From Rugalucina vietnamica (taxonomy: Eukaryota > Mollusca > Bivalvia > Lucinida > Lucinidae), in contig OZ024884.1 of assembly GCA_964017185.1 (NCBI GenBank), positions 12,501,548-12,565,547 on the forward strand: DNA of 64,000 bases, in the 5' to 3' direction. The notes under the pieces are model-generated. The model was not told the origin of the DNA and did not search any database. It was given only the letters and a program-made list of their open reading frames with translations. A program made the position numbers and the translations under genes. Below are positions 25,701-54,143 of the stretch, one piece after another (position 1 is the first letter of the stretch; the number at the start of each line of letters is the position of its first letter).

Positions 25701-28700
25701 GACAAGCTAGAGGACCAGCCGGAAATTCCTGATGATCTACACGTGAATCGTTGTGTCGGCGATGTTTACGAAGTCCTCGGTGACCTCATCAAAACCCACC
25801 CTGATGCCGAGGAACTGGACAAACTTCTGTATAACCCACATGTTAGGGTAAGGCTGACATTGGTGTTGTATTTGATAGATTATTTTTCGGCATCAAATCT
25901 TTTGTAGTGCTGTGGCATGACGTGCCTGAAAAATTGAGCCGCCCTATACAAAAACCAGCAATTTGGTTTATGAACAGGTCTGACACAAACTGAGCTGTAC
26001 AAGCAATGAAGATGGCTGGAGACTGGAAATTTGTATTTAGAAAGTAGAGGAATTGTACTATTTGTGTATCAAAAACAAAGGCACTGATCAGTTACAGCGA
26101 AGCTGATCTGTGCCTTTGTTTTCACATATGCAGATTGTTGGTTTTCTCATGAGGCAGCACAATTGTTGACTGCACTGGGATGTTAAGACTTTGACCCAAA
26201 CAATTTTTTCTTGGCTTAAATTTAATAGCTAGGTTATTAGACATTCTCTTGGACTTTGGCTATTATTCAGGTTAATGGGCAATTTTTTAAAATTCCATAT
26301 TTTTCTATGATCACAAAAAGATTTGGGGAAAATTTGAGTGTTGTATAGTTTTTGACCCTTTATCAGCTTTAAAAATGAGCTAGTGCATGAGAAAACAAAC
26401 AATTTGCATATGCTAAAACAAAGATGCAGATCAGCTGTGCAGTATCTAATAATAATAATCTCTATATTTATAGAGGATGATAACGTATTTAGCACAGCGG
26501 CCAGTGTTCCATACGGTCCTCTAGTGAATACAGACATTGATTATTTTCGGACCTTTTTTGTTATTGTTCGGACTTTTTCATATAAGACATGCGATGTTAG
26601 TGATGCTATATTTTGTTTTTGGGAGAAGCCAGTGCTTGCCTTATACTGCTGAGCGTCAAGCAAGGTAGCCACTGGTACCATTTTTAAAGTCTTTGGTATG
26701 ACCCGGCCCGGGATTGAACCCACGACCTCCTGCTCCCAAAGCGGACGCTCTAACCATTTTGCTATCAGCTGATCAGCGCCTTTGTTTTCGCTACATGGAT
26801 AGTTCAATTCCTCCTCTACTTAACTTTAGAATTTCAAGCTTCTAGCCTGCTTCTGTAGCTGTACAGGCCGGTTTGTGTCAGACCTGTTCGGAAACCAAAT
26901 TGTTGGTTTTCCCACAAGGCGGCTCAAATGTCTCTGATAACAATGATAAACCTAAGCTGAATTGCCTCAAAATGACCAAAATTGCACAGAGTGCCACATC
27001 TGATGCATGAAGATTTGCAAACTACGTAACACATTTGAACCACGAGGTGAGAAAACCAGTCTTCAGGGTCAGGGTCTTTGACCAGGTCTGACACAAACCG
27101 ACCTGTACAGGTTAGAAGCTTGCAAATTCGGATTCAAGAAGAAGAGAAACAGTACTATCCGTGTGGCGAAAACAAAGGCGCTGATCAGCTTCGCAGTTGC
27201 TGGGAAGCTGACCTGCTTTTGTTTTCGCATTGGCAAAAGTCTGGTTTTCTCATGAAGCGGCTCATTTGGTCAAATATTTAATCTAAATAAAAACAGTTAA
27301 TTCAAACACTAGTTTAAAACGATTCTGTTGTGTGTATGAGCAGTTTATACATCAGACTACATTCCTGTGGTTGTAAGTATGTAATGTCATTCTACAAAAG
27401 AGCCGCCTTGTGGGAAAACCAACAAAGTGGTTTCCGAACAGGTCCGGCACAAACCGAGCTGTACAAGCACAGAAGAATGCTAGATGCTTGAAATTTTGGA
27501 TATAAGTAGAGGAGGAATTGTACTATCCGTTTAGCGAAAACAAAGGCGCTGATCAGCTTCGCGGTTACCGCGAAGCTGATCTGCGTCTTTGTTTTCGCAT
27601 ATGCAGATTGTTGGTTTTCCCACGAGACGGCTCAAAACTTTTATTTTGTGATGCCAGAACATCAAATGGTGATTCTTTGGTCGCATTTCCGAACTTTGTC
27701 CATACAATATACAGAGGTTTTTTTCAGCTGTAAAAATAGAAAATTTCATCAGAAAAAAGATATTTTTGATAGGTTTGCCAAATTATAAATATTGATTGTG
27801 GGTACATGTTAGAACTGTCTCGCTCGAAGAGGCGGTTCTAATGGATACTCACAATCTATGTTTTGGATAAGAAAATAGGTATACCCCTGTAAACCCCAGT
27901 TTTACTATTTAGAAGTGGGGTATGATGAGGTATACATTTTATGGACATGTTTTCATGATGGATAGGATATTTCTCTTAAATTATACACACATATATTATA
28001 CATACATGTAAATATCATTCTATCAATTGCAGGCCCTACTGACAGCCCATGATGATATCGTGGATAGAAACTATGAAGAATTACCGGAATTAGCTCCACA
28101 GATGATACAAGAAACAGCCGCCAGTGTTTAAATAATGTATTTCAGTAATTATACACACATAAAAATGCATACATGTAAATTTCAATCAATTGCAGGCCCT
28201 ACTGACAGCCCAGGATGATATCGTGGATAGGATATTTTTTAACTTATACGCACATATATTATACATACATGTAAATATCTATGAATTACAGGCCCTACTG
28301 ACAGCCCATGATGATATTGTGGATAGAAACTATGAAGAATTGCCGGACGTAGCCCCACAGATGATACAAGAACAACCCCCGGTGTTTAGTAATGTTAACG
28401 ACCAGATCAGACTTGTTGGAATTATGAAGAGTGATACAGAACCACTGGTAAACTTCTTTCTTAGTAGAAAACATATCAGCGGCCCCGGTGGACGTGTGGC
28501 TAGGAGTGCTGATATTTTATTACTGTGCTTAACCATTCAACAAAGATGCTGATCAGCTGATCAGTAACTGCACAGCTGATCTGCATCTTTGTTTTGGCAT
28601 ACTGCAAATTGTTGGTTTTCTCATGTGGTGGCTCAAATATTAATAATATTTTGTAAATATTGATGACACATAATTTGAGACGCCTCGTGGGAAAACCAAC

Positions 28701-31700
28701 AATGTGGTTTCCGAACAGGTCCGACACAAACCGACCTGTACAAGCACAGAAAAGAGCTAGAAGCTTGAAATTTTGGATTTAACTAAAAGAGGGATTGCAC
28801 TATCCGAGTAGCGAAAACAAAGGCGCTGATTAGCTTCGCGGTTACCGCGAAGCTGATCCGCGTCTTTGTTTTCGCCTAGGCAGATTGTTGGTTTTCTCAT
28901 GAGGTGGCTCATTTAACTTTCATTGATGGAATAATATGTATGTGACGACTTTTGTATCTTTGTTTCTAGGGTATCACCGTAAAGATAGATGAGACTGGTG
29001 ATTTGGTGATAGCTAGAATTATGACGGGCAGCATGAGTGATAAATTAGGTATGAGAAATTTCTCTAAGACGTTTTAGACTCCTAATTTTCTACTGGTTAA
29101 CGGCTCAAGTGTGAGTCTGCCCATGAAAAGTTTAGTCAAACCATCCATACATATGTATGAGCCTTATTGGTTCGCTTGGGTGGTTATGTATGTATGAAGC
29201 TCATTTTGAGTGTCATGACATCCTCATGTTGGGTAAAAGCCCCACAAGATGGGGGCAACGTCCCGACGTGACCATTGCTTTTGCCTGGGACGTAATGCAT
29301 CAATTCAAACAAACAAATTTGCCTCTAATACATGCACTTGTTTTTTCCCATACTCCTAATTTCTCTTGTTGAACAAATATTCTAAATTCTTCAAATTATT
29401 TCGTACAGAAATTTCTACCTTTTTATCGCACCTGCTTATAGCAGGGTGTGATATAGGAGTTCAAATTTCCGTCCGTCCGTCCGTCCGTCCGTTCGTTCGT
29501 CCGTTCGTTCGTTCGTTCGTCCGTCAAAATTTACGTCGAAGTTTAGTTTTCTCGACATCAGAGATAGCTGCGAGTCTGAAACCTTGTATAGTAATTGTCC
29601 CTGACATACCCTTCAAGCACGCACCTTAACCCGGTGCCCTTGACCTATATTTTACGGTCCATTGACTTTGAAAATTTTTACGTCGAAGTTTTGTCAACAT
29701 TTACGTCGAAGTTTGGTTTTCTCAACATCAGAGATAGCTGCGAGTCTGAAACCTTGCATAGTAATTGTCCTTGACATACCCTTCAAGCACGCACCTTAAC
29801 CCAGTGCCCTTGACCTATATTTCACGGCCCACTGACTTTGAAAATTTTTACGTCGAAGTTTGGTTTTCTCGACATCAGAGATAGCTGCGAGTCTGAAACC
29901 TTGCATAGTAATTGTCCTTGACATACCCTTCAAGCACGCACCTTGACCCGGTGCCCTTGACCTATATTTCACGGTCCACTGACTTTGATAATTTTTACGT
30001 CGAAGTTTGGTTTTCTCAACATCAGGGATAGCTGCAAGTCTCAAACCTTGCATAGTAATTGTCCTTGACATACCCTTCAAGCACGCACCTTAACCCGGTG
30101 CCCTTGACCTATATTTCACGGTCCACTGACTTTGATAATTTTTACGTCGAAGTTTGGTTTTCTCAACATCAGAGATAGCTGCGAGTCTGAAACCTTGCAT
30201 AATAATTGTCCTTGACATGCCCTTCAAGCATGCACCTTGACCAGGTGCCCTTGAACTATATTTCACGGTCTATTGACTTTACCCGATGCAGGTGCGATAT
30301 CGACCTCCGCGGAGTTCTTGTATTCATATTTACTCCAGTTACATGTGTGCACCGCAAAGTCCCAAATTCTCCAAAGGGCGGCCCCCATGGCCGAGTGGTT
30401 AAGAGCACTGTTTCTTAATCACACCGCTGTGGAGTTGTTTGAGCCCCGTTATGGCCACATGTGAGACAAGCCAAGTTCTGCTTGTGGGTGTGCCAGGTGG
30501 TTTTTCTCGGGGTTCTCCCTTTTCCCCCACCTACGGATTAGCCCGTCTCATAATTTTATGAGCTGAAATAATCTTAAAAGGGATGTAAATAAAAATAAAA
30601 CTGAGATCCTTTAAGAGCAATGAGAATATTCATGAGAAAGGTGATGGGCCATACCCCGGTTTCGGCTTTTCAAAACTGAATCATAAAAAAAAAAAATCGA
30701 AGTCCATACATTTTAAATTCCCTAGTTCTCCAATTTTCCTTGAAAATCCAGGTACCTTAGTTCACAAAACTCAATTGCATTTTGAATTCCCAAGTTATCC
30801 ATTTCCCTTGCATTCAATTCCCAAGTTCTCCAATTTCTTAAATAGCATTCAAATTGTCTGTGATTGAATTATTGACGTCTCAAACATGGGAGAAGCGGCT
30901 TTAAAATGCCCCGCAAAGGGCAATAAACATATTGCTAACACTGCTCACAAAGAAAATGACACCTCCAATAAAATTACTTCATTAATTTATCTGGCTCTCC
31001 AAAGTTGAAATCTGAATCAAGTCAGTGGTTTTATCGATAAAATTTTGTCCTAGAAAAATGTAAAAATATCCTGGAAAAGTCTTGGAATTTTGCTTTTCCA
31101 TTTCTATATGAACCCTGAATTATAAATTGTCAATGACATCTTTCAGGGCTTCTACATGTGGGAGATATCATCAAAGAAGTAAATGGTATTCCCGTGTTTA
31201 CACCACAACAGTTAATGGACATCATCAGGAACGCTGACAGAAGTGTCACCTTAAAAATCATTCCAACATACTTAGAGCAGCACACATCGTCACAGGTAAT
31301 GTACAACTTTGCACTTAAATGTTTATAATTTGGCATGAACTAGCACTATTGAAATAGTGCTATTTTATAAGACACAATAACGTTGGCGTAAAAATCACTT
31401 AAAATCATTTCAGTCTATTTATAAGGTACACTTCATCGCAGGTAATATAGGATCTTCTGTGGAATAACTTAGAGCAGTTTTGCTCTTCAAGCAAACCCCA
31501 GCAGGCACATGAAGTCAAAATGACATCAAATCGACGTCAATGCGACATGACGTGGCGACGATGTGGATATGACTTCATTTTGATGTCATGTGCCTGCCGG
31601 GACCATTGCACTTTGAGGGGAAAATTATATGAGCCGCGACGCAAGAAAACCGGTCTTCGGGGTTTCCGACAAGGTCTGACACAAACCGGCCTGTACAAGC

Positions 31701-34700
31701 ACAGAAAAGAGCTAGAAGCTTGAAATTTCGGATTTAAGTAGAAGAGGAATTGTACTATCCGTGTAGCGAAAACAAAGGCGCTGATCAGCTTCGCGGTTAC
31801 CACGAAGCTGATCTGCGCCTTTGTTTTCGCATAGGCAATAATCCCGTTTTCTCACGATGCGGCTCATATCATCTTATCCAAGACAACTAATGGGAAGGAC
31901 TTGAGTTCTAAGTTGATGCCTATGCCAAAGATTATCATAACTGTTTACCAAATATGTGTTAATAAGTTATGTCTTTTGCTTTTACTTGTAGATGTTCGTT
32001 AAAGCACACTTTAGTTACAACCCAATGAATGATCGACTGATCCCGAGTAAGGAAGCAGGGCTTGCCTTCCAAGACGGTGACATTCTGATGATTCTAAACC
32101 ATGATGACCCCAACTGGTGGCAGGTCAGTAATATTTGAGCCGTGGGACGAGAAAAAAATGGGGGTTTTCGACTACATCAGACACAAACGAGCATCAGTGC
32201 TCCAGATAGCGTACGTACAGCCGTAATTTACGGACTTAATTTTCGCAGATACGGTAGAAATTGAAATTTTGTCAGTACCAAAAACGGGAACGAAATGTCC
32301 GATACGGTTGGGTTACGCTTATTGACCGTAACCTTAACTCATTATCCCCAGAGTGCCGCTAATTTGAGGCAGATTTCTCCGCATGCCATTATTTATTCCC
32401 GAGTGCCACGAAAAGTCGTCACATACGATTGGTCCACAAAATACGAATTTCTAGCTTTGTTTAAATTTCAACCAATCAAATTCGCGCTAACATCGGTAGT
32501 TGGCATATTTTACTACAAGGAAAACGAAAGTAGAACATTTGTTTCCGGAGTTAAATGCAAGTAAACAACGATGGAAAACGGTGAAAATCAAGGGGTTTTA
32601 AATCGTGATTGTACTGGTGACACGCCAAATTCACAAAATTCCACCATGTACTTAAGCTGATACATCGCTTTGAAACCAGAGTGTGTAGCATTTTCATATC
32701 TATCTAAGGTCAATAAGGGGAAAGGTTGTGCATTGGACGCTGACACTTAGTCAAGACTTGCAAGTCTTTATGAGCCAATGTACTCCCCCACCTTCCCTTT
32801 TACTTCTGTCTTGCCCATATCTTTCAATAGGCCTGGGTTATTAAGGAGAGGGTGAAGAATAAAATGCAAAATACAGGGGAACCTATGCCCAAATTTTTCA
32901 CAAGGTTGGACTTAAAAAAAGTCTTCGTGGGCAAATAGAACAGATACTGAAGCCGAAATCTGGATACTGATTGGCTTAAATTTTGACCAGTACCGTACTG
33001 ATTGAGAAAAAAATTATCTGGAGCACTGGAGCATGTAAAGTCGCATAAACCGGCATGACAGGGCCCTAACCTCACTCTCAGCTTTTTCAAAATCCACTTC
33101 AACCACTTGTACATGTGGATGTGTCAGACCTGGTTGGAAACCCCAGAGATTGGTTATCTTGTGTCGTGGCTCATATGGTAAAGGTTACCTTGGTTTTTCA
33201 GATAATGGTCATGCAAAAGACTTCTCACTAGGATTTTGAAAATTGGAATAAAAATGAAGTATATCTTATAATGAGCCGCCTTGTGGGAAAACCAACAATG
33301 TGGTTTCCAAACAGATCTGACACAAATCAGGCTGTACAGTCACAGAAAAGAGATTGAAGCTTGAAATTTCGGATTTAAGTAGAAGAGGAACTGTACTATC
33401 AGAGTAGCGAAAACATAGGCGCTGGTCAGCTTCGCAGTTACTGCGAAGCTGATCTGCGCCTTTGTTTTTGCATATGCAGATTGTTGGTTTTCTCATGAGG
33501 TGGCTCAACTGTTGGATTCTATCTTTACTTTTCTATTTTGGATGTTTCGAAAAGTTGGAGTCAGAATCAAATGTGTCAACCCTTTTTAATTTAAATGAAT
33601 ATAGACATTTCATACCGAAAACATGCCCATGCAATATACAGAGATTTTTAATGTGTTAAACAATGAAAATTTTCATTTGAAATTTGTTCATATTTTTCTT
33701 ATTTTTGCTCCTCAATCTATGTTTTGGAGCAAAAATAAGAAAAATAGGACTGGTATACCCCTGCAAACCCCAGTTTTTTTCTATGTAAAAATCGGGTTTA
33801 AGGGGGTATACATTTCACGAATATAATTTCCTGATGATCATCTTCATTCTTTATTCAAGGCTCAAATTGTGGGAGATGAAACAAACAGAGTTGGTCTGAT
33901 TCCGTCCAAAAACTTGGAAGAGAACAGGAAGGCATTTGTCAGATCAGACATGGACTATTCAAAGAGCAGTTTATGTGAGTACATACTGAAACAAAAATTT
34001 TACAAGAATAGGTACCTTCTAAAAGTCAACAATAGCTGGTTTCTTTGTCTGTTGACATAACTTTATACCAGGATATTGCAAACCAGGGGCCAGTTGTTCA
34101 AATCTTTGTTAGCTTAATGTCATCGTTAAGTCCTGAACTTGTTAAGTAAATGCTGACTACATAAGCAAATACAGTGTTATTTTTTGTTGACAAAATGTGA
34201 GAATCCTTTGCACTGCAAAGGATTCTCACTTTTTTCAACAAAAAATAACAGTGTATTTGTAATATTCATGTTTGAAATTTTAATGAATCCTTAACTAACA
34301 ACATCGTTAATTTTGAACAACTGACTCAAGTAAATTAATGGTATTGCTGAAAGTATAACAGTAGAAAAGTATGTACATGTATGTTTGCCAAAATTATAAG
34401 CCTTTTGATTTCTCCTCTGAAAGATTATTGTCATATTTGCTTGTGTTAAATATTAACGAAATCCTGTGTAAAGGACATAAATCTATACAAATGATTCTTT
34501 TATCCTTGTTACAGTATGTGGTTTGAAGAGGAAGAAAAAGAAGAAAATAAAATACAGCACAAAAAGTACAAATGGTAAGAGTAAAACGCCCACGCAATAT
34601 ACAAAGATTTTTATTTTCAGCTTAAAAAATTGAAAATTTTACCAGGAAAAAAATATGATATTTTTAATATTTTTGCTCCAAACATAGATCATGGGTACAC

Positions 34701-37700
34701 ATTGGAACCGCCTCGTCGATGCGGTTCTAACGAGTACCCACAATCTATGTTTTGAACCAAAAATAAGAAAAAAAATTAAGTATACCCCTGCATACCCCAG
34801 TTTTTATGTCTCCCCCCGACAGGGTCGGGAGACATATTGTTTTTCCCCGTGCGTCTGTCTGTCCGTCCGTCCGTCTGTCCGTCACAAATCGTGTCCGCTC
34901 TATAACTTGAAAACCGTTAAAGATTTTTCAATGAAACTTGGTACACTTGTAAACCACGACGAGACGATGTGTCATGCACAAGAACCATAACTCTAGCTTG
35001 AGTATTTTTGGAGTTATTTCCCTTTGATTATTTTCGATACAATTTCGTGTCCGCTGTATAACTTGAAAACTGTTTAAGATTTTTCAATAAAACATGGTAC
35101 ACTTATTAAGCATGATCAGACGATGTGTCATGCACAAGAACCATAACTCTGGCTTGAGTATTTTATGAGTTACTTCCCTTTGATTATTTTCCATACAATT
35201 TTGTGTCCGCTTTATAACTCGAAAACCGTAAGAGTTATTTCAATGAAACTTGGTACACTTATAAAGCACGATGAGATGATGTGTCATGCTAAAGAACCAT
35301 AACTCTGGCTTGCATATCTATGGAGTAATTTCCCTTTGATTATTTTTCCATACAATTTCATGTCCACTCTGTAACTTGAAAACCATGAGAAATATTTCAA
35401 TGAAACTTGGTACACTTATAAAGCATGATGAGATGATGTGTCATGCTAACGAACCATAACTCTTGCTTGCATATCTTTGGAGTTATTTCCCTTTGATTAT
35501 TTTTCATACAAATTTGTGTCTGCTCTATAACTAAAAAACCATTAGAGTTTTTTCAATGAAACATGGTACACTTATAAAGCATGATGAGATGATGTGTCAT
35601 GCACAGGAATCATTACTCTTGCTTTCATATCTTTGGAGTTATTTCCCTTTGATTATTTTCCATACAATTTTGTGCCCGCTCTTGAACTTGAAAACTGTAA
35701 GAGATATTTCAATGAAACTTGGTACACTTATAAACAGAATGACAGGATATGTGGTGCACAAGAACTATAACTCTTGCTTGCATATTTTGGACATGCACGT
35801 AGAAAGGGGGGAGACATCAGTTTTCACATAGAAAACAAATTCTAGTACTATATAAAAGTGGGGTTTAAGAAGGTATTTATTGCACAGATGTGTTTTTCTG
35901 ATGCATTTGATAACTTTTGTGTGATTTTTTATTTTAAATAATGAGGCCATGTTTTGAAAAAAATATGGATTGTTTGCTGTGACCCATTAATCATAAAGTT
36001 TAAATTAAACAAGCAAACTTTATAACAAACTGACTAAAATATTATTTGTTTGAATTGGTGCTTAACATCCCAGTCAACAGCTATGGTCATGACGGGACGT
36101 TGCCTCCATTTTATGGGAATTTTATCCAAAATGAGGATGTCATGAAATTCAACAAGTGCTCTAGTAAGCCACCGAGGCTTTCAGTGTATGGATAGTTTGA
36201 CTTGAACCACTTTTCCTTTGCCAGTAATCCAATGGTCAGTCAGTAGCATATTAGCTTTGCCGGGAGGCACAAACAGTCCTTTTATTTCTTTAGGCCCCAA
36301 TGGGCAGGGCAAAATTTGATGTAGCACTGTAGTTTGCACTGCAAAACTGTGTAGACACTAGACCCTGATCAATTAACTTTGGTACTGTTAGCTAGATTTA
36401 TTTAACCATAAATCAAGGCAAATGTTGTCTCAAGTATGAGTCAAATGGGGTCAGCATTCACCAACAGAGAGATTGATTAAAACATTATGGTAAATTTACC
36501 CAATTTTATCAATATGTTTAGAATGGGATAAGGCTGAAATGATTCTGTACTATGAAGAGGTATCCTGAGTGCCTTCATTCCAGAGAAAATACCTTGTCTT
36601 AGTCAGAGCTAACGGTGTTGGTCGGCGATCACTAAAAGAGAGATTGATAAAAAATTATGGTCAATTTACCCAATTTTAACAATGTTTTCAGAGTGGGATA
36701 AGGCTGACATGATCCTATATAAGCAAGTAGCCAGGATGCCACCCTTTCAAAGAAAATCACTCGTCTTAGTCGGAGCCATCGGGGTCGGTCAGCGATGGCT
36801 AAAAATGAGATTAATAATATCTGATCATTTTAAAATATTTTAACAATAATTTCAGAATGGGACAAAGCTGATATGATCCTATATGAAGAAGTTGCCAGGA
36901 TGCCACCATCCCAAAGAAAATCACTCGTCTTAGTCATAGCCAACGGGGTCGGTCAGCGATCGCTAAAGGAGAGATTGATAATATCTGATCATTTTAGCAT
37001 ATTTTAACGATAATTTCAAAATGGGACAAAGCTGACATAATTCTGTATGAAGAAGTAGCCAGGATGCCTAATCACTTGTCTTAGTCGGAGCCAACGGGAT
37101 CAGTCAGCTATCACTAAAGGAGAGATTGATAATATCTGATCATTTTAGCATATATTAACGATAATTTCAGAGTGGGACAAAGCTGACATGATTCTGTATG
37201 AAGAAGTAGCTAGGATGCCGCCATTCCAAAGAAAATCTCTGGTCTTAGTCGGAGCCAACGGGGTCGGTCGGCGATCCCTGAAGGAGAGATTGATAAAGTC
37301 TGACCCACAAAGATTTGGGGGTGCCATGCCTCGTAAGTACCTCTTTAATACTCGTAAGTACCTCTTTAATATCTTACAAACATCCAAGGTCTGAAAAATT
37401 ATAGTTCTAAGTTCAGAAATATGCACAATAACTTAAGTTTTGCTATCCTATGTGACTGAATGACCTTGTTTATTTCTGACTTTGTTTGAGACCTCAATCA
37501 CAGGTTTCCTCTTAACATGGCTGAAGGGCTTAAGCGCAGGGGTCCAGTTACTGGGCTCTACGGCGAAAAATATCGCCAAAAGTTGTGAGATTTCGCCTTA
37601 TGTAACCTTGAAAGAGAAGTCGACTTCGCCCTGTTTTTTTCAGATTTCAAAAGTTTACTTTCGATTTTGATCACAGTGATTCACTTGTTTGATTGTATAC

Positions 37701-40700
37701 AGCTCTCGAATAACACCATCTTCGCCCACGGCGACACAGCTGATTGTCAAGTGACATTAAACAGATAACCTTTATTGATTAATCCCTATGCAATTATCGA
37801 ATAATTGCCGCACCTCAAGTTCGATCATTAATTCACGGCGACATGGCAAGTGTCAGCTGAAGCGTCACCAATGCTGATTGGCTAATTAGCGTCACGTGTC
37901 GAAAGCAACTTTGACAAGGGGCAGTTCAGAGGGCGGAGTCATAAATTATTGACTAGAAGACACGCTTCTGTGATATAATAACTGCAAATCATCTACTGTT
38001 CAAGTCTGTTGGCCTTTGAACTAGACTTTGGGAGAAACGGTCGCCGTGAAACTGTTTCGTTTTTATGAGCAAAATATGTTACAACTATCTATTAGCCGCA
38101 TTTTTAACATTCAATATGCCTGAAATTGTGTTTCCTGGCAAAAATCCTGATTCAAATGCATTTTCCAGACTTAAATTGCCAAAGAAACGCTGTATTTTTA
38201 CGTTGAATTTTCTGCCATAAACGCTATTGTTGTATTATATTATCCTCCTTTAGTGGCACACCTCAAACTGGACTCTCATAGAGACTTACTTACAGGGACT
38301 AGTATAATAATAATGCCTCACCCATCAATGTATTTACACGCAACTCATAGATGTTGACCCCTCTCTGTCCTCTCCCCACCACGTGCCCTATCCCCCCCCC
38401 CCCCCCCCCCCAAAAAAAAAAAAAAAAAAAAAAATTATGATTTAATGAGAAAAAACAAAACCAATATAAATGAATATAAATGTTACTTGGGCCACTGGAA
38501 CTTAATTAAATCTTAGGAAATGAGTGTCCGGCACTGAAAGGGGCCATCAATCTTTATCGATGAGTAGTCAAAGTCACTTCTCTCTGATGTCTCAAACTTC
38601 TCCCTGTTTGGGCTGGAAGGAGAAGTCACTTCTCCCTGTTGTCATGGGCTAGCAGGACCCCTGTTAAGTGAGAGTATCAAGTTTTCCGAGTACCCTTGAC
38701 TTTAAATTGTTTGCAAGCCATAAAAAATCAACATCTTTAAATATGTTTTTTATTCAATGATATTTGCATACCATATCATTTTTTGTCAATTTATTTTTCC
38801 CCAAGTATGTTAATTTATTTAGTAATTAAATTTATTTAGTAATTAAATCTATGACACTTAGGTTTATTATCGCACCTGCTTATAGCAGGGTGCGATATAG
38901 GAGTTCAAATTTCTGTCCGTTCGTCCGTTCGTTTGTTCGTCCGTCTGTCAACATTTACGTCGAAGTTTAGTTTTCTCGACATCAGTGATAGCTGCGAGTC
39001 TGAAACCTTGCATAGTAATTGTCCCTGACATACCCTTCAAGCACGCACCTTAACCTATATTTCACGGTCCACTGACTTTGAAAATTTTTACGTCGAAGTT
39101 TTGTCAACATTTACGTCGAAGTTTGGTTTTCTCGACATCAGAGGTAGCTGCAAGTCTGAAACCTTGCATAGTAATTGTCCTTGACATACCCTTCAAGCAC
39201 GCACCTTAACCCGGTGCCCTTGACCTATATTTCACGGTCCACTGACTTTGAAACTTTTTACGTTGAAGTTTGGTTTTCTCGACATCAGAGATAGCTGCAA
39301 GTCTGAAACCTTGCATAGTAATTGTCTTTGACATACCCTTCAAGCACGCACCTTAACCCGGTGCCCTTGACCTATATTTCACGGTCTTTTGACTTTGAAA
39401 ATTTTTACGTCGAAGTTTGATTTTCTCGACATCAGAGATAGCTGCAAGTCTGAAACCTTGCATAGTAATTGTCCTTGACATACCCTTTAAGCACGCACCT
39501 TAACCCGGTGCCCTTGACATATATTTCACGGTCCACTGACTTTGAAAATTTTTACGTCGAAGTTTGGTTTTCTCGACATCAGAGATAGCTGCAAGTCTGA
39601 CCATCCATACATATAAGCCTTAGTGGCTTGCTTAAATGGTTATATTTGAAGCACTTTTTGTATGACGTTACATCCTGATTTGGGGTAAAAGTCCCATAAA
39701 ATGGAGGCCACATCCCAACAGGACCATAGCTGTACACTTGGACGTTAAACAGTAATTCAAACAAACAAGAGTTTCTTTCCCTGGAAATTCCATTTACAGG
39801 TACAGTGGGTCACTTCTTTCATCTTGGCCACTTAATGTCATGAAAAGTGATGATTTAGGTCCCTATTCGGATTTTCTGACAGTTCTAGTTTGTTCTATTT
39901 ATAGATACATCCAGAGCTCCGAGAGAAGGCGAGGTTCATGGGAAAGGTTACTTCTTCACCGACCGAGAAACCATGGAATTGGATATCAAAAATGACAACT
40001 TCTTGGAATATGGAGAATTTAACGGGAACTTGTATGGCACAAAATTAGACACTATCGACAATGTGATACGATCAGGGAAAATGTGTGTCCTGGATGTTAA
40101 TCCTACTGTAAGTATCAAGTTGACCAAAAAAGGTATTTGTCGATCATTCAAATAAGAAAAAGAATCCATGATACTTTCTGTCTGGAAATGTTTGTGTCAA
40201 TGTAAACTTAGCTAAGATTTGTTATTTTGCTTCTTGAGTTCAAAGATTGTTCATATTACCTAAAAGCTTTAAAGCCTACAAAAGTAATTGCTTGAAAATT
40301 TAAAGACATATTTTTTTGTTAAATTGGAGTCAAAAGCCTTCTTGTACTTTTTTTTTAGAGTCTACATGTCTAATTGTTTTTCAGTCTCTAAAAGTGCTAA
40401 AGAATGCTGACTTTATGCCATACATAATCTTCATCGCGGCACCAAGTGCTGAGGCCCTCACCGTCATGTACGAGGAGGGTCGTAGGAAAGGAAAATTCAA
40501 GGGACGGTCGGGACCTGGAACAGTGGATGTCAGAACGGTAAATATTTTCATGATTTTAATGTTGGCTTAAACGATAGATTTCGTGAACAAAAAAGCTGAA
40601 AGTATGCAGATTGAAAACGTTTTATGTATAAGAGTTATTTTTATGCGATAATAATCAATGACTAGTATAGAAAGAAAAATTCAGAAAAAAATAGTTATCA

Positions 40701-41703
40701 ATAGCTAAAAATCACCCATTAATTTTTGACATATTTATTTGTAGGAGGAAGATTTCTTGAACACAATAGCAAAAAGTTCACAGTTAAGATTGTCAATGGC
40801 TTTAAAAAAAAAAATCTGAAAAATAGTTATCAATAGCTAGCAGTCACACTTTAACTTCACCACTGTCTTGCAAGAGGAAGATCCCTTCATTGTGAAAACA
40901 TGCCCATGTAATAAACAGATTTTTCCAAAATCTGTAAAAATTGAAAATTTTCAGTTAAAAGTAAATGATGTTTTCCTTATTTTTTGCTCAAAACATAGAT
41001 TGTTGGTACAAGTTAGAACCGCCTCGCCGAGGTGGTTCCGCCTCGCCGAGGTGGTTCTAACGAGTACCCACAATCTATGTTTTAGAGCAAAAATAAGAAA
41101 AATATGTATACCCAATAAATTCAAGTTTTACTATATAAAAGTGCCAGGGGTGTTATGGGGTATACATTTCATGGGCATGTTTTCCTGATGTTGAACAAAA
41201 TTGCAGAAAGTGCACAGCTTGAAAAGTTTACAAGAGATATTTTGATGTGATGATTGTCAGTGCAGACGATCATACTGTATGTGTGGAAATTTTCCCGTGA
41301 CTTTTATTCGGCGAATTTTCGATTTCCAAATTATTAGCTGGTCTTTGAATTTGCGAACGAGTACTTGTGCAGTTTATAAAGCTTATTGTTAATCTTTATT
41401 AGCGAGAAGTTCTCGCAATTATTTCCGAATTTACAGTATTTACTTGAATATGAAAAATAACTGAATAAAAAAGCAATTATCAGTACCTATAAATCACACA
41501 TTAATCATTGACATATTTATTTGCAGGAGGAAGATTTCTTGAACACGATTGCAGAAAGTGCACAGATTGAGAAAGTTTACAAGAGTTATTTCGATGCGAC
41601 GATAGTTAATGACAGTTTCGAAGACACATTCCTGGAAATTAGAAAAATGGTGAACGACCTGAGTACAGAGACACAATGGGTACCGGTTAACTGGGTGTAC
41701 TAG
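22718..41703 (+). CDS. MPP2/MPP6-like: MPP2/MPP6-like p55-family MAGUK scaffold protein, 13 coding exons
   Basis: Seen: exons 22718-22754, 22991-23112, 25695-25847, 28292-28447, 28970-29048, 31147-31295, 31992-32123, 33860-33974, 34515-34574, 37171-37332, 39905-40107, 40385-40537 and 41527-41703 join in frame with GT/AG junctions to 565 codons plus TAG. Domains by residue: tandem L27 (about 13-120), PDZ (about 140-222, carboxylate loop PLGI), SH3 (about 233-300), lysine-rich HOOK (about 315-334), guanylate kinase-like (about 355-565) ending QWVPVNWVY. Length fits vertebrate MPP2/MPP6 (about 540-580). Known of the family: non-enzymatic membrane-associated scaffold; L27 pairs with Lin-7/other L27 proteins, PDZ binds C-terminal tails, HOOK binds protein 4.1; the GUK P-loop is degenerate, as here (GANGVGRRS). 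Inferred: lateral-membrane or synaptic scaffolding in a mollusc. MPP2 and MPP6 are vertebrate paralogues, so a single orthologue name cannot be chosen; the insect counterpart would be Varicose. Several exons have decayed tandem copies nearby. Confidence 0.93.
22991..23112 (+). CDS. MPP2/MPP6-like: MAGUK coding exon 2 (first L27)
   Basis: The acceptor AATATTTCAG ends at 22990 and the donor GTATGT follows 23112. Phase 1 in, phase 0 out. It encodes [13 protein letters not shown]... to ...[10 protein letters not shown], an amphipathic L27 half that aligns by memory with the N-terminal L27 of MPP2/MPP6 (IDLIFLKGIM-like block matched here by [10 protein letters not shown]). Confidence 0.9.
23144..25170 (+). 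repeat. repeat C cluster in intron 2
   Basis: Starts with the hairpin ATCGCACCTGCCTATAGCAG, then (TCCGT)-rich sequence, then about fifteen 100-145-bp units of TTTACGTCGAAGTTTGGTTT / AGCTGCGAGTCTGAAACC / CCTTGACCTATATTTCACGG; a second head starts at 23789 and tails GATGCAGGTGCGATATCGAC lie at about 24645 and 25132. Frames such as 24441-24157 on the minus strand are unit artefacts. Confidence 0.9.
25273..25507 (-). mobile_element. MITE-A copy
   Basis: Reverse orientation; core CTTCGCGGTGACCGCGAAG with matched arms. Confidence 0.85.
25695..25847 (+). CDS. MPP2/MPP6-like: MAGUK coding exon 3 (L27 linker and second L27)
   Basis: 51 codons, phase 0 to 0, donor GTAAGG. It encodes [20 protein letters not shown] to [11 protein letters not shown]. 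There are two tandem acceptors six bases apart (CACAG at 25694 and ACACAG at 25700); the upstream one keeps TQ and better matches the family's length before the KLED-type motif. Confidence 0.9.
25936..26159 (+). mobile_element. MITE-A copy, core partly decayed
   Basis: GAGCCGCCCTATACAAAAAC start, GTTGGTTTTCTCATGAGGCA end; core GATCAGTTACAGCGAAGCTG has lost arm symmetry. Confidence 0.8.
26377..26925 (-). mobile_element. MITE-A copy split by a SINE
   Basis: The left part ends in the hairpin at about 26448 and the element resumes at about 26763 (ATCAGCTGATCAGCGCC) to GGCGGCTC at 26925. The insert sits in the palindrome centre. Confidence 0.8.
26449..26762 (-). mobile_element. full-length tRNA-derived SINE inside MITE-A
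   Basis: On the minus strand: head AATGGTTAGAGCGTCCGC, TTTGGGAG anticodon-like loop, GTGGGTTCAATCCCGGG, a body of about 220 bp, and an (ATT)n tail at 26449. Transcription would be from internal A and B boxes (RNA polymerase III). Confidence 0.8.
27037..27263 (+). mobile_element. MITE-A copy, ATTT duplication
   Basis: GAACCACGAGGTGAGAAAAC to AAGCGGCTC, flanked both sides by ATTT (27033-27036, 27264-27267). Confidence 0.85.
27400..27633 (+). mobile_element. MITE-A copy, AAAA duplication
   Basis: Complete; core arms CTTCGCGG / CCGCGAAG; flanked by AAAA on both sides. Confidence 0.9.
27684..27960 (+). mobile_element. MITE-B copy just upstream of the exon-4 triplication
   Basis: ACAATATACAGAGG, palindrome around GAACTGTCTCGCTCGAAGAG, CCCCAGTTTTACTATTTAGA, end ATGGACATGTTTTCATGATG. 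Confidence 0.85.
28033..28131 (+). pseudogene. decayed tandem copy 1 of MAGUK exon 4
   Basis: After acceptor ATCAATTGCAG this copies exon 4 nearly base for base, reading [20 protein letters not shown] and on, then small indels shift the frame into TAA at 28129-28131. The acceptor is intact. If spliced in it would end the protein after the L27 pair (about 136 residues). It could be a dead duplicate or a rare poison/alternative terminal exon. Confidence 0.8.
28196..28231 (+). pseudogene. truncated tandem copy 2 of MAGUK exon 4
   Basis: Acceptor TCAATTGCAG followed by the first 35 or so bases of exon 4 ([11 protein letters not shown]), then the sequence jumps to the intron segment beginning GATATTTT that also precedes copy 1 at about 27966. 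The join marks a duplication breakpoint at GTGGATAG. Confidence 0.8.
28292..28447 (+). CDS. MPP2/MPP6-like: MAGUK coding exon 4 (end of second L27, start of PDZ)
   Basis: 52 codons, phase 0 to 0; acceptor ATGAATTACAG, donor GTAAAC. It encodes [20 protein letters not shown] to KSDTEPL. It is the third and only full-length member of a local triplication (see copies at 28033 and 28196). The EPL at its end runs into GITV of the next exon to form the PDZ carboxylate-binding loop. Confidence 0.92.
28539..28634 (+). mobile_element. MITE-A right part
   Basis: ACAAAGATGCTGATCAGCTG to GTGGTGGCTC; the left half is missing. It lies about 90 bases after the exon-4 donor. Confidence 0.75.
28677..28910 (+). 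mobile_element. MITE-A copy, ATTT duplication
   Basis: Complete; matched core arms CTTCGCGG / CCGCGAAG; ATTT on both flanks. It ends about 60 bases before the exon-5 acceptor. Confidence 0.9.
28970..29048 (+). CDS. MPP2/MPP6-like: MAGUK coding exon 5 (PDZ)
   Basis: 79 nt, acceptor TTTCTAG, donor GTATGA, phase 0 in and 1 out. It encodes [20 protein letters not shown] then SMSDKL, matching the PDZ beta-strand block (DLVIARIL-type) of MPP2/MPP6. Confidence 0.92.
29140..29320 (-). repeat. repeat M copy
   Basis: CCATCCATACATATGTATGA, GGGTAAAAGCCCCACAAGAT, ACGTCCCGACGTGACCAT and a CAAACAAACAAA tail; inverted relative to 36046-36305. Confidence 0.65.
29424..30322 (+). repeat. repeat C, complete copy
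   Basis: Head ATCGCACCTGCTTATAGCAG, (CCGT)n/(TTCG)n tract, six internal units, tail CCGATGCAGGTGCGATATCG. The outer GATATCGCACCTGC ends are inverted repeats. Confidence 0.9.
30375..30600 (+). mobile_element. tRNA-derived SINE, full length
   Basis: Head CCATGGCCGAGTGGTTAAGA (Ser/Leu-like A box), B-box-like TTTGAGCCCC, body ACATGTGAGACAAGCCAAGT and TTCTCGGGGTTCTCCC, end AATCTTAAAAGGGATGTAAA. Sister copies at 4163 and 48515. Confidence 0.8.
30598..30685 (+). repeat. repeat K copy
   Basis: ACTGAGATCCTTTAAGAGCA and GGTGATGGGCCATACCCCGG; reverse complement of 20395-20476. Confidence 0.65.
30690..31140. other. intron 5 sequence without recognised features
   Basis: A few short CCCAAGTTCTCCAATTT repeats (about 30720-30840) only. 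Confidence 0.35.
31147..31295 (+). CDS. MPP2/MPP6-like: MAGUK coding exon 6 (PDZ C-terminal half)
   Basis: 149 nt, acceptor CTTTCAG, donor GTAATG, phase 1 in and 0 out. It contains [14 protein letters not shown], a strong PDZ signature shared with MPP2/MPP6, then [10 protein letters not shown] closing the fold. Confidence 0.95.
31497..31602. repeat. 105-bp foldback element
   Basis: AGCAGGCACATGAAGTCAAA at the left is inverted as TTGATGTCATGTGCCTGCCG at the right, with GACGTCA/TGACGT palindromes between. Confidence 0.8.
31631..31865 (+). mobile_element. MITE-A copy (GAGCCGCGACG subtype), ATAT duplication
   Basis: Complete; CCGGTCTTCGGGGTTTCC left body; flanked by ATAT on both sides. Confidence 0.9.
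31992..32123 (+). CDS. MPP2/MPP6-like: MAGUK coding exon 7 (SH3)
   Basis: 44 codons, acceptor ACTTGTAG, donor GTCAGT, phase 0 to 0. It encodes [20 protein letters not shown] and ends DDPNWWQ, the SH3 tryptophan pair. The L-I-P-S-K-E-A-G-L block is typical of p55 MAGUKs. Confidence 0.95.
32137..33172. mobile_element. 1,036-bp element with MITE-A-type ends on both sides
   Basis: Left GAGCCGTGGGACGAGAAAAA ... CATCAGACACAAACGAGC and right (reverse complement) GAGCCACGACACAAGATAAC ... CAGGTCTGACACATCC are both the long-end type of MITE-A, inverted to each other, enclosing about 0.9 kb without the hairpin core. Inside is a CpG/CCAAT patch (about 32410-32510) and ATG GAA AAC GGT at 32571 starting a 29-codon frame. 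Confidence 0.5.
33273..33506 (+). mobile_element. MITE-A copy
   Basis: Core arms CTTCGCAG / CTGCGAAG, both changed relative to the CGCGG form. Confidence 0.88.
33611..33836 (+). mobile_element. MITE-B copy lacking the palindrome
   Basis: CATACCGAAAACATGCCCAT start, ATTTTTGCTCCTCAATCTAT shows the palindrome deleted, end TTTCCTGATG, 23 bases before the exon-8 acceptor. Confidence 0.85.
33860..33974 (+). CDS. MPP2/MPP6-like: MAGUK coding exon 8 (SH3 end, start of HOOK)
   Basis: 115 nt, acceptor TTATTCAAG, donor GTGAGT, phase 0 in and 1 out. It encodes [20 protein letters not shown] then [13 protein letters not shown] is the SH3 closing strand and RKAFVR the conserved start of the HOOK linker. 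Confidence 0.93.
34091..34323. repeat. foldback element CAGTTGTTCAAA
   Basis: Outer CAGTTGTTCAAA / TTTGAACAACTG and an inner near-perfect hairpin (TGTTATTTTTTGTTGACAAA ... about 34168-34256) with loop TTTGCACTGCAAA. Confidence 0.8.
34515..34574 (+). CDS. MPP2/MPP6-like: MAGUK coding exon 9 (HOOK, polybasic)
   Basis: 60 nt, acceptor TTGTTACAG, donor GTAAGA, phase 1 to 1. It encodes [20 protein letters not shown]. The lysine run matches the protein 4.1-binding HOOK segment of p55 MAGUKs. A MITE-B copy begins at or within a base of the donor. Confidence 0.9.
34576..35903 (+). mobile_element. MITE-B copy starting at the exon-9 donor, interrupted by repeat E
   Basis: Left part 34576-34806 with palindrome GGAACCGCCTCGTCGATGCGG, right part 35846-35903 with TACTATATAAAAGTGGGG and TTTTTCTGATG. 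Confidence 0.85.
34807..35845 (+). mobile_element. repeat E, nested in MITE-B, flanked by TA
   Basis: Begins with hairpin TGTCTCCCCCCGACAGGGTC, has a (CCGT)n tract and six roughly 150-160-bp units (CATACAATTTTGTGTCCGCT / AACTTGGTACACTTATAAAG / GATGTGTCATGC), and ends GGGGGGAGACATCAG...TTCTAG. TA dinucleotides at 34805-34806 and 35846-35847 look like a target duplication. Confidence 0.8.
36046..36305 (+). repeat. repeat M copy
   Basis: TTGAATTGGTGCTTAACATC, CCAGTCAACAGCTATGGTCA, AGTAAGCCACCGAGGCTT, ending near GGGCAGGGC. Confidence 0.65.
36450..36500 (+). pseudogene. remnant of a further exon-10 duplicate
   Basis: CAACAGAGAGATTGATTAAA followed by TTATGGTAAATTTACCC repeats the 3' part of the unit seen between the exon-10 copies. 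It marks the upstream edge of the tandem array. Confidence 0.5.
36522..36655 (+). pseudogene. decayed tandem copy a of MAGUK exon 10
   Basis: Acceptor-like TGTTTAG, then an exon-10 copy reading [10 protein letters not shown], an extra TAC codon, and a stop after EEVS. There is no donor; after the GUK P-loop region the copy passes into intron sequence. Confidence 0.8.
36692..36830 (+). pseudogene. tandem copy b of MAGUK exon 10, open through the P-loop
   Basis: Acceptor TGTTTTCAG is intact and the frame is open: [20 protein letters not shown], then P-loop GAIGVGQRW, then reads into intron-derived SDHFKIF and stop. The exon's 3' quarter and donor are missing because the duplication unit joins exon 5' part to intron 3' part. 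Confidence 0.8.
36856..36996 (+). pseudogene. tandem copy c of MAGUK exon 10, open through the P-loop
   Basis: Acceptor AATTTCAG is intact; it reads [21 protein letters not shown]-loop [22 protein letters not shown] and stop. It lacks a donor, as copy b does. It is closest to the functional exon. Confidence 0.8.
37019..37135 (+). pseudogene. decayed tandem copy d of MAGUK exon 10
   Basis: The acceptor AG is changed to AA (TTTCAAA) and a deletion after MP shifts frame to a TAG. Otherwise it is very close to the functional exon 10 that starts 152 bases later. Confidence 0.8.
37171..37332 (+). CDS. MPP2/MPP6-like: MAGUK coding exon 10 (GUK P-loop), with duplicated donor
   Basis: 162 nt, acceptor AATTTCAG, phase 1 to 1. 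It encodes [40 protein letters not shown] and on to RFGGAMP. The donor segment (CTCGTAAGTACCTCTTTAAT) occurs twice in tandem, 21 bases apart, so a second donor near 37353 would insert seven codons (RKYLFNT). The first donor fits the family length. Four decayed copies lie upstream. Confidence 0.92.
37537..38663. mobile_element. hAT-like non-autonomous element in intron 10
   Basis: Starts CAGGGGTCCAGTTACTGGG and ends CTAGCAGGACCCCTG (inverted CAGGGGTCC); flanked by TTAAGCG and TTAAGTG, a one-mismatch 7-bp match compatible with a decayed 8-bp hAT target duplication. 1.1 kb; no transposase seen. Confidence 0.6.
38390..38435 (+). repeat. poly-C / poly-A homopolymer block
   Basis: About 20 C followed by about 24 A; length is likely unreliable in assemblies. 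Confidence 0.95.
38868..39598 (+). repeat. repeat C copy, 3' truncated
   Basis: Head ATCGCACCTGCTTATAGCAG, (TTCG) tract, five units, then joined directly to a repeat M copy at about 39600 in the middle of a unit (GCTGCAAGTCTGACCATCC). Confidence 0.85.
39600..39772 (-). repeat. repeat M copy
   Basis: CCATCCATACATATAAGCCT, TTTGGGGTAAAAGTCCCATA, GGACGTTAAACAG and a CAAACAAACAAG tail. Confidence 0.65.
39905..40107 (+). CDS. MPP2/MPP6-like: MAGUK coding exon 11 (GUK core)
   Basis: 203 nt, acceptor TATTTATAG, donor GTAAGT, phase 1 in and 0 out. It encodes [33 protein letters not shown] and CVLDVNP. These match the GMP-binding-like region of MAGUK GUK domains. Confidence 0.95.
40385..40537 (+). 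CDS. MPP2/MPP6-like: MAGUK coding exon 12 (GUK)
   Basis: 51 codons, acceptor GTTTTTCAG, donor GTAAAT, phase 0 to 0. It encodes [20 protein letters not shown] and a basic tail [31 protein letters not shown] is diagnostic for the MPP2/MPP6 group; the glycine-rich stretch differs from vertebrates. Confidence 0.94.
40745..40819 (+). pseudogene. decayed copy 1 of MAGUK exon 13 (5' part)
   Basis: Acceptor ATTTGTAG followed by [13 protein letters not shown], nearly identical to the start of exon 13, then unrelated and poly-A sequence with a stop. Upstream intron sequence (CATTAATTTTTGACATATTT) is also shared with the functional exon. Confidence 0.75.
40875..41275 (+). pseudogene. decayed copy 2 of MAGUK exon 13, split by MITE-B
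   Basis: The copy starts AGGAAGATCCCTT (40875-40887), is broken by a 303-bp MITE-B (40888-41190), and resumes TTGAACAAAATTGCAGAAAG at 41191. Compared with the intact exon (GAAGATTTCTTGAAC) only a TT at the junction is doubled. Frameshifts follow (GATATTTTGATGTGATGA). Confidence 0.8.
40888..41190 (+). mobile_element. MITE-B copy inside a decayed exon duplicate
   Basis: CATTGTGAAAACATGCCCAT to GGGCATGTTTTCCTGATG, 303 bp. The palindrome arm GCCTCGCCGAGGTGGTTC is locally doubled. Exact ends are defined by the intact exon 13 as empty site. Confidence 0.92.
41527..41703 (+). CDS. MPP2/MPP6-like: MAGUK coding exon 13 (GUK end and stop)
   Basis: 58 codons plus TAG; acceptor ATTTGCAG. It encodes [29 protein letters not shown] and the terminal QWVPVNWVY. 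The C-terminal WVPVSWVY-type ending is shared by MPP2/MPP6. Confidence 0.95.
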   Translation, partial: EEDFLNTIAESAQIEKVYKSYFDATIVNDSFEDTFLEIRKMVNDLSTETQWVPVNWVY

Positions 41704-42640
41704 GTTCATTAAATGTTTCAAGTCAAGCAACAGAATTAAAGAAAACCGTCGCTTTAGGAGCTTATAATTCATAACTGGTTTAGTAGTAGACACCAGTTAA
41801 CTGGTGTGTATTGTGCACAGAAACGCAATGGTTACGGGTTTACTGGGTTTCTAGATTCATTTAATGTTTCAAGTTGGAGCTATAGTCAAGCAAAATACTG
41901 TTAACATTACGGTAGGAGCTTATACTAAGGTGTATTAGGTTCATAAAATGTTTCAAGTTTAAACTATTGTCAATCAGAATACTATTTATTGTTTACGATA
42001 GGAGCTTATACTAGGGTATATTAGGTTCATTAAATGTTTCGAGTTCAAGAAACAGAAATACAGGAAACCATTACTTTAGGGGCTCATAATTTATTGTTAA
42101 TTAATTTTCGAACAAAAAAGCAGTGTGGATTGTGCGCAGAAACACAATGGATACCAGTTAACTGGGTTTACCATGTTCATTAAATGTTTCAAATTCCAGC
42201 TTAAGTCAAGCAGAATACTGTTTATTGTTTACGGTAGGAGCTTATACTAGGGTGCACTAGGTTCATTAAATGTTTCAAGTTTAAGGAACAGAAATTAAAC
42301 TGTTACATTATGAGCTTATAATTCATAGTTAAACGTTTGAGAACAGAAACACAGTAGATTACAGTTAACTGGTGTGTATTTTCTTGTGCACAGAAACACA
42401 ATGGATACTAGTTAATTAGCTTTACTATGTTAATTAAATGGTTTTAGTTCAAGCTACAGTCAAGCAGAATACTGTTAATTGTTTACGGTAGGAGCTTATA
42501 ATTTCAAGTACAGCAGAGGACATAGTTAAAACTGTTTATGTGAGGAGCTGATCATTCAAAGGTGTTATATGAGTGCAGAAACACAATGGTCCTTGTAAAT
42601 GGGGTGTATTAGGTTATTCGGTTTTGCAACTGTCTTAAAT
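41660..42640 (+). repeat. tandemly duplicated C-terminus / 3'UTR units of the MAGUK gene
   Basis: About eight imperfect units, each with AGGTTCATTAAATGTTTCAA and often TAGGAGCTTATA, follow the stop codon. Some retain the coding end: at about 42140 a unit still reads TQWIPVNWVY then HVH and stop. They are probably part of, or just past, the 3'UTR. A candidate poly(A) signal AATAAA lies at about 42889. Confidence 0.75.
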
Positions 42641-52608: not shown

Positions 52609-54143
52609 CCAGAGGACCAATGGTCCTGTAAACGCTCACCTGAGATCAGCTGCATATACCAATAAACATGTTTGAATATTATGGTATTTAACTCCAGTGC
52701 AGGGGCAGATAAGCCCTTGGGCCATTTTCTTTTTTCAGAATCTTCAATATTCTGTCCATTTGCCAATTTCCTGTTGGCTTTTTCCTTCAAATGACATTTT
52801 AACAGTTTTCCCAATTCAGATGCACAGGCAACCCATGTTGACCTTGCCATAAACTTGGTCAAGGTCATCACAGGGTCATGATTTATATATACATTGGAGT
52901 ACTTTAGCCATCGATGCCTCACGCCAAGTTTCCTTGAAATCAGTCTATTGGTTTCAGAGAAGATGATTTTTGATGGTTTTTTACCATATATGGGCATGGC
53001 GGCCATCTTGGTCATGTGACCTAGATTATTTATATACACATTGATTCCCCCATTCTATAGATGCTTCACTTAAAATTTGGCTTTGTTTGGCCAAGCGGTT
53101 TCAGAGGAGAAGACGTTTGAATATTATGGAAATATACATGTATATTGCCCCGGGGTGGGGGCACATGAGCCCCTGGGGTCCAATTTTTTTCAGAATCATT
53201 AATATCCAGTCCTACTGCCCATTTCCTGCAAGACTTTCACTTTAAATGACATTTTAAAAGTTTTCCCCATTCAAATGCATTGGTGACCTATGTTGACCTT
53301 CCCGTAAAATAGGTCAAGGTCATCACAGGGTCATGATTTATATACACATTGTAGTGCTTGAGCCATCGATGCTTCGTGCCAAGTTTCGTTGAAATCGGTC
53401 AACCGGTTCTGGAGAAGAAGATTTTTGAACGGTTTTTACCATATATGGGCATGGCGGCCATCTTGGTCATGTGACCTGGATTTTTTATATACATATTTGT
53501 TACCCCTTCCTATTGATGCTTCACATAAAATTTCGCTTTGATTGGCCAAGCGGTTTCAGAGGAGATGATGTTTGAATATTATGGAGATATACATGTATAT
53601 TGCCCCGGGGTGGGGGCGGATGAGCCCCTGGTGCCCAATTTTTTTCAGAATCATTAATATTCAGTCCTACTGCTCATTTTCTGCAAGATTTTTCCTTTAA
53701 ATGACAATTTAACAATTTTTCCCATTCAAATGCATTCGCGACCTATGTTGACCTTGCCGTAAAATAGGTCAAGGTCATCATAGGGTCATGATTTATATAC
53801 ACATTGTAGTGCTTGAGCCATTAATGCTTCATGCCAAGTTTGGTTGAAATCGGTCCAGTGGTTCCGGAGAAGAAGATTTTTGAAGGGTTTTTACCATATA
53901 TGGGCATGGCGGCCATCTTGGTCATGTGACCTGGATTATTTATATACACATTGGTTCCCCCTTCCCATAGATGCTTCATGTAAAATTTGGCTTTGATTGG
54001 CCAAGCGGTTTCAGAGGAGAAGATCTTTGAAAATGGTGGACGACGGACGGACGACGGACGACGGACGACGGACGGACGGACGGACGACGGAGCATGGGTA
54101 TACTATAAGCTCACCTTGTGAGCCTGACGGCTCAGGTGAGCTA
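52609..54143 (-). repeat. repeat D, long copy
   Basis: Begins ACCAGAGGACCAATGGTCCT; three roughly 440-480-bp internal units (TATGGGCATGGCGGCCATCT, GTCAAGGTCATCACAGGGTC, TTGGCCAAGCGGTTTCAGAG); (GACG)n tract at 54040-54090; ends GGCTCAGGTGAGCTAAAA. The 147-codon frame inside is not a gene. Confidence 0.88.

Follow-up and report, generated by a model that had tools for sequence, protein, structure and literature searches.

A MAGUK gene with mirage-like half-exon copies before its guanylate kinase P-loop exon and at two further exons

Background

Tandem duplications that join the 3' end of an intron to the 5' part of the next exon were described in amphioxus and named mirages (PMC3087553). The BflGb6 mirage consists of 150-160-bp units with 81-100% identity, 6 of them in one haplotype and 3 in another, and is reported to undergo concerted evolution; BflGb9 carries a 157-bp duplicate of the 3' exon boundary; an Adh3 mirage is also reported, several mirage units retain splice signals, and reverse transcription PCR (RT-PCR) suggested regular splicing of the mirage genes (PMC3087553). 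Similarly, a study on lancelet PGBD5 describes imperfect tandem repeats of 60 and 108 bp over splice sites beside two exons, and cites Adh and troponin C as further lancelet cases (PMC3902484). The mirage cases that we found in these sources are all cephalochordate (PMC3087553, PMC3902484). No mollusc mirage turned up in our literature searches on mirages, minisatellites and introns, a statement that extends to those searches and not to print at large. Here, we analyzed a stretch of 64,000 nucleotides deposited as Rugalucina vietnamica (Mollusca; Bivalvia; Lucinidae; assembly GCA_964017185.1, contig OZ024884.1, positions 12,501,548 to 12,565,547 of the forward strand; hereafter the window), in which a gene of the MAGUK family carries an array of this kind immediately upstream of the exon that encodes the P-loop of its guanylate kinase (GUK) domain.

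Results

A half-exon array precedes the GUK P-loop exon

A repeat search identified four near copies upstream of the GUK P-loop exon (E9 of the 12 exons found), set at steps of 170, 164, 164 and 151 bp and making five copies together with the true unit (Table 1), and Tandem Repeats Finder (TRF) counted a 164-bp unit 4.9 times over 36503-37303. Each unit joins the final ~31 nt of the intron, including a TTAAC-like branch site and the AG, to the initial ~133 nt of the exon. A BLAST of E9 and its 60-nt flanks against the neighbouring sequence recovered the four upstream copies at 132, 177, 221 and 231 bits, against a maximum of 28.3 bits over 60 shuffled surroundings. The exon part of the copies ends at position 127 (a) or 133 (b, c and d), and the next copied intron tail follows directly. 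Neither the BLAST matches nor the alignment showed the final 29 nt of E9, its donor end, in any upstream copy. The acceptor AG ends at 36521 in copy a, 36691 in copy b and 36855 in copy c. A TGA follows after 15 codons in copy a, and the frames of copies b and c reach a stop after 50 codons, beyond the P-loop region. The units cross the intron-exon boundary with a single splice site each, the true exon stands at the end of the array, and the host gene is intact.

These results uphold most of the original prediction, made by reading the letters alone, which had described four donorless near copies of a MAGUK P-loop exon, the three acceptor positions, the lost AG of d, the stop in a, the open frames of b and c and an origin by recurrent tandem duplication. 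Beyond it, we found half-exon copies at two further exons (see below), a fragment of the exon end at 36449-36482 and an exact duplication of the E9 donor. The fragment is the remnant of a further, perhaps the oldest, copy, and a donor-like ATG/GTAAAT was seen by eye at 36482-36492, between this fragment and copy a. The donor duplication comprises two 21-bp copies (37330..37371, + strand) that place the strong donor GTAAGT twice, in frame. If used, the second donor would add RKYLFNT in frame, giving a possible GUK isoform longer by 7 aa; a polymorphism is also possible.

The host gene encodes a p55/MPP-type MAGUK

Joined at AG/GT sites, the 12 exons (22991-41703) form a single open frame that encodes 552 aa and ends in a stop. 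Pfam placed two L27 domains, PDZ, SH3 and Guanylate_kin (1.8e-48) above cut-off on the protein, in the L27-PDZ-SH3-GUK order that characterizes p55/MPP-type MAGUKs, and the best relatives of solved structure were chains of MAGUK p55 subfamily member 5 (1.5e-77). The gene is presumably closer to MPP2/MPP6. Six-frame Pfam scans of 28.0-46.0 kb (+ strand) supplied the domain pieces, and the other exons were recognised through motif patterns and visual inspection. These latter two means revealed neither the protein start nor the first coding exon(s) upstream of 22991, a region in which they may have missed exons.

Half-exon copies lie at two further exons

The 12 exons, extended by 60-nt flanks, were each searched against their surroundings (BLAST, shuffled maxima as threshold), and copies of exon sequence appeared at 3 of the 12, namely E9, the L27 exon E3 and the last exon E12. 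Two exons had matches in their flanks only, from dispersed repeats, and the remaining seven had none. At E3, 163 bp separate the acceptors of the two copies. The nearer copy has TGGATAGGATATT at its junction; the motif TGGATAG is present in both the intron and the exon, which suggests 7-nt microhomology at the event. At E12, half-exon copies lie upstream and copies of the stop-codon end lie downstream. The upstream copy k3 seems to be interrupted by a 291-bp element with inverted ends at 40894-41184. This palindromic element ends in GAAAACATGCCCATG and CATGGGCATGTTTTC, and look-alikes were noticed by eye near 27860-27960, 33600-33800 and 34580-34800. Of the eight downstream matches, one equalled the 31.0-bit maximum of the shuffles and seven scored higher; their first step is 152 bp, and they possibly lie within the 3' untranslated region. 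For the PDZ exon E5, a donor-end copy noted by eye remains tentative, since its local score barely exceeded the shuffled maximum (Table 1) and the BLAST of E5 against its surroundings missed it.

A preference of duplication for exons was also considered. Four of the five local, non-dispersed clusters at 22.9-42.7 kb touch an exon, against a mean of 2.5 of five under random placement (P = 0.19 for at least four), and we therefore claim no such preference; the remaining cluster, a 156-bp satellite at 34884-35791, lies clear of exons. Of the tandem repeats with long units in the window, many (442-1035, 23222-25116, 29523-30280, 34884-35791, 36503-37303 and 38954-39600) have units of ~147-178 bp or double that length, a set that was picked post hoc and includes one dispersed 147-bp satellite family. 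Elsewhere, 52730-54031 holds 2.9 copies of a 455-bp unit (88% matches) with a 147-aa frame lacking a Pfam match, and a 350-aa frame (16246-17298, - strand) with a weak zf-RVT match below cut-off (2.3e-4) is likely a retrotransposon end.

Table 1 Coordinates of the true exons, their partial copies and associated features in the window
Feature	Position	Strand	Evidence and remarks
E3, true exon, end of L27 region	28292..28447	+	Exon chain, Pfam
E3 half-exon copy 1, intron tail and ~105 nt of exon, AG kept	27966..28138	+	203 bits, 87%; acceptor score 9.4
E3 half-exon copy 2, intron tail and 36 nt of exon, AG kept	28149..28230	+	97.8 bits, 87%; acceptor score 7.1
E5 (PDZ) donor-end copy, tentative	31398..31450	+	By eye; local score 30 (highest of 500 shuffles, 29)
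Exon-end fragment, mostly lost further copy	36449..36482	+	Repeat family
Copy a, TTTAG acceptor kept but weak (0.1), 3-nt insertion, in-frame stop	36491..36654	+	21.7% from e
Copy b, acceptor kept, open across P-loop region	36661..36824	+	19.1% from e
Copy c, acceptor kept, open across P-loop region	36825..36988	+	12.1% from e
Copy d, AG changed to AA, 13-bp deletion	36989..37139	+	9.7% from e
Unit e, holds 5' part of true exon (31-nt intron tail and 133 nt of exon)	37140..37303	+	Alignment, BLAST
E9, true GUK P-loop exon	37171..37332	+	AG/AGTGGG ... CCTC/GTAAGT; canonical splice sites, open frame with other 11 exons; Guanylate_kin
E12 half-exon copy k1, acceptor lost	40576..40682	+	56.3 bits, 73%
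E12 half-exon copy k2, 60-nt intron tail and 38 nt of exon, AG kept	40686..40783	+	114 bits, 86%; acceptor score 11.1
E12 half-exon copy k3, AG changed, read as split	40873..41257	+	Right part 41191-41257: 79.7 bits, 87%; left part by eye
E12, true last exon, to stop codon	41527..41703	+	Exon chain
E12 3'-end copies, stop-codon end and following sequence	41817..42615	+	8 BLAST matches, self-comparison

The true exon is constrained beside decaying copies

Compared pairwise with the true exon, the copies show synonymous to nonsynonymous changes of 16:7 (a), 15:7 (b) and 11:4 (c), against a neutral expectation of ~70% nonsynonymous. Copies a-c as selected coding sequence were considered on this basis and rejected: placement on a tree moves much of the synonymous excess to the true-exon and internal branches and removes most, not all, of the signal. 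On the tree that follows the order on the DNA (ab, c, de), the true-exon and internal branches together carry ~1.5 nonsynonymous against ~11.5 synonymous changes; for copies b, c and d the counts are ~14 and ~11 (Fisher test, P = 0.005-0.036 depending on rounding; P = 0.002-0.008 on another tree). The branch of copy a (7 nonsynonymous, ~10 synonymous) is inseparable from the root. The contrast between branches indicates that the functional lineage is constrained and the copies are not, or are much less so.

Divergence from the true unit grows with distance, from d through c and b to a (Table 1), and over the whole unit no other tree is as short as the one ordered by position (71 steps; the next has 72). 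The most distant copies are thus likely, not certainly, the oldest. The two E3 copies have no such order, each being ~87% identical to the true exon. In neutral simulations, an in-frame stop such as that of copy a arose by chance in 57% of cases.

Copied acceptors are retained at the neutral rate

Nine acceptors were copied at the three exons; six keep their AG (a, b, c, both E3 copies and k2) and three have lost it (d, k1 and k3, with k1 and k3 judged by eye from the alignment), against 5.8-7.3 of nine expected to be retained under decay at 10-20% divergence. We then scored acceptors with a matrix built from the nine acceptors of exons that have no such copies, a small set on which true sites, when left out, range between -3.8 and 8.8. 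At E9, where the true site scores 5.8, copy b reaches 8.5, copy c 8.2 and copy a only 0.1; at E3, the true site scores 8.0, between its two copies, and at E12 k2 exceeds the true site (10.2). There was no sign, in AG retention or matrix scores, of pressure to destroy copied acceptors among these nine. Selection to silence the copies, which the original prediction had read from their decay as purifying pressure, is therefore unsupported, because AG retention equals the neutral rate and the acceptors of b, c and k2 outscore the true sites. The scores do agree with its further point that the spliceosome would have live-looking acceptors to pass over. Splicing to a, b or c instead would lengthen the exon to 811, 641 or 477 nt and bring in a premature stop.

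Discussion

The window holds an array with defined borders in an intact gene, a constrained exon beside decaying copies, and a like layout at two further exons. We consider it highly probable that the array is a mirage, formed by near-neutral tandem duplication across an intron-exon boundary, whose half-exons are tolerated through exon definition; the mutational step itself and exon definition as the reason for tolerance are what we infer from this layout. Repeated tandem duplication at a living exon would have copied ~31 nt of intron end together with ~133 nt of exon start. The last unit, still attached to the remaining exon and the donor, would have stayed the functional exon, and the upstream units, having neither donor nor coding duty, would decay. 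In exon definition, a donor and its nearest acceptor are recognised together across the exon. The donor at 37332 would accordingly pair with the acceptor 162 nt away and ignore those upstream, and the copies would be tolerated because this pair defines a 162-nt exon. Such pairing would forgive duplications that bear one exon edge, so that half-exons would persist and other duplications would be removed. The same tolerance would hold on either side of an exon; the duplicated E9 donor and the downstream copies of E12 do lie on the opposite side.

Several points weigh against this explanation. Acceptor strength does not account for avoidance of the copies, since b and c outscore the true E9 site, albeit on a small matrix, and judging from their sequence either may serve as an alternative acceptor. 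Laboratory constructs with duplicated acceptors gave mixed results, and in one study a beta-globin construct was spliced only to the distal one, which suggests that proximity rules depend on context (PMC5389562). Moreover, 14 of the 25 changes in copies b, c and d are nonsynonymous, against ~71% for fully neutral decay (P = 0.08). Finally, bootstrap support for the position-ordered tree is only 57.5%, and the exon part alone favours other trees by 1-2 steps (54-55 against 56).

The shortfall of nonsynonymous changes would also fit the view that the acceptors of b and c are regulated poison sites, leading to a GUK-truncated protein or to message decay, as would their intact AGs, their scores above that of the true site, and frames that stay open through the P-loop region before stopping. 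We regard this as unlikely, given that copies d and a are broken, that AG retention over all nine copies sits at the level of neutral decay, that like copies lie beside unrelated exons of the gene, and that amphioxus arrays of like layout were reported without splicing disturbance (PMC3087553). The breakage of d and a is in turn what one would cite for selection that keeps the copies silent and is recorded in their order of decay; retention at the neutral rate and the ease with which a stop such as that of a arises by chance make this very improbable.

Tandem copies are a classic site of mis-assembly, and the amphioxus report includes a mis-assembled mirage in the draft genome (PMC3087553), so that an origin of the array from two haplotypes or repeated reads deserves mention. 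Such an artefact, a concern raised in the original prediction, is hardly credible here, where the copies differ from the exon by 10-22%, far above the level of duplicated haplotypes or repeated reads, carry private indels, and show a constrained/unconstrained pattern of change. The copy number of an individual may differ from that of the assembly, and the exact 21-bp donor duplication is the sole piece that could be an artefact or polymorphism. We give almost no credence to remains of a mutually exclusive cluster of full exons after donor loss. Exon copies do adjoin the true exon in tandem, but a cluster of that type requires an acceptor and a donor per copy, and copies a-d end at nearly one point inside the exon, pass into the next intron tail and never reach the donor end.

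The mirage interpretation, near-neutral duplication with tolerated half-exons, would carry wider implications. If the host is a mollusc, mirages extend beyond lancelets and are no lancelet peculiarity. Should such arrays prove general, they are natural experiments on how splice sites are chosen, in which equal-scoring acceptors, backed by exon copies, sit 150-650 nt upstream and would need to be passed over, and they show a gene enduring repeated damage at its exon edges without loss of the protein. If the copies are age-ordered, the array is an internal record of exon change. We can extend this, as a speculation that we think rather doubtful, to arrays as stacked fossils that record past states of exon and acceptor, left by one duplication process of nucleosome or Okazaki-fragment size, frequent in some invertebrate genomes, from which half-exons remain since only one-edge duplications escape selection. 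A shared process is proposed because the ~150-170-bp units at unrelated exons resemble the 150-160-bp mirages of amphioxus.

Among known systems, whole-exon tandem duplications and mutually exclusive exons also place exon copies side by side, but the MAGUK copies never hold both splice sites. Intron gain by internal tandem duplication, reportedly described by Gao and Lynch in 2009 and said to have a case in the RdRp gene of potato, is likewise a mutation inside a gene; in the MAGUK gene, no new intron is shown. Lancelet PGBD5 also has splice-site-spanning repeats at more than one exon, but its units are shorter, abut 5' splice sites and in some cases enter predicted coding sequence (PMC3902484). 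The amphioxus mirages (PMC3087553) share the layout and the unit length (~150-170 bp) of the MAGUK array. Unlike them, the MAGUK copies involve three exons within a single gene and extend to the stop-codon end of its last exon; unlike the homogenised BflGb6 array, they are 78-90% identical to the true unit and probably age-ordered; and, unlike the RT-PCR cases, the array is known from its sequence alone. Taken together, the MAGUK array is of a known, rarely described kind and fits mirages closely, and what is new is its occurrence at three exons of one gene, the involvement of the stop-codon end of the last exon, and the gradient of divergence with distance.
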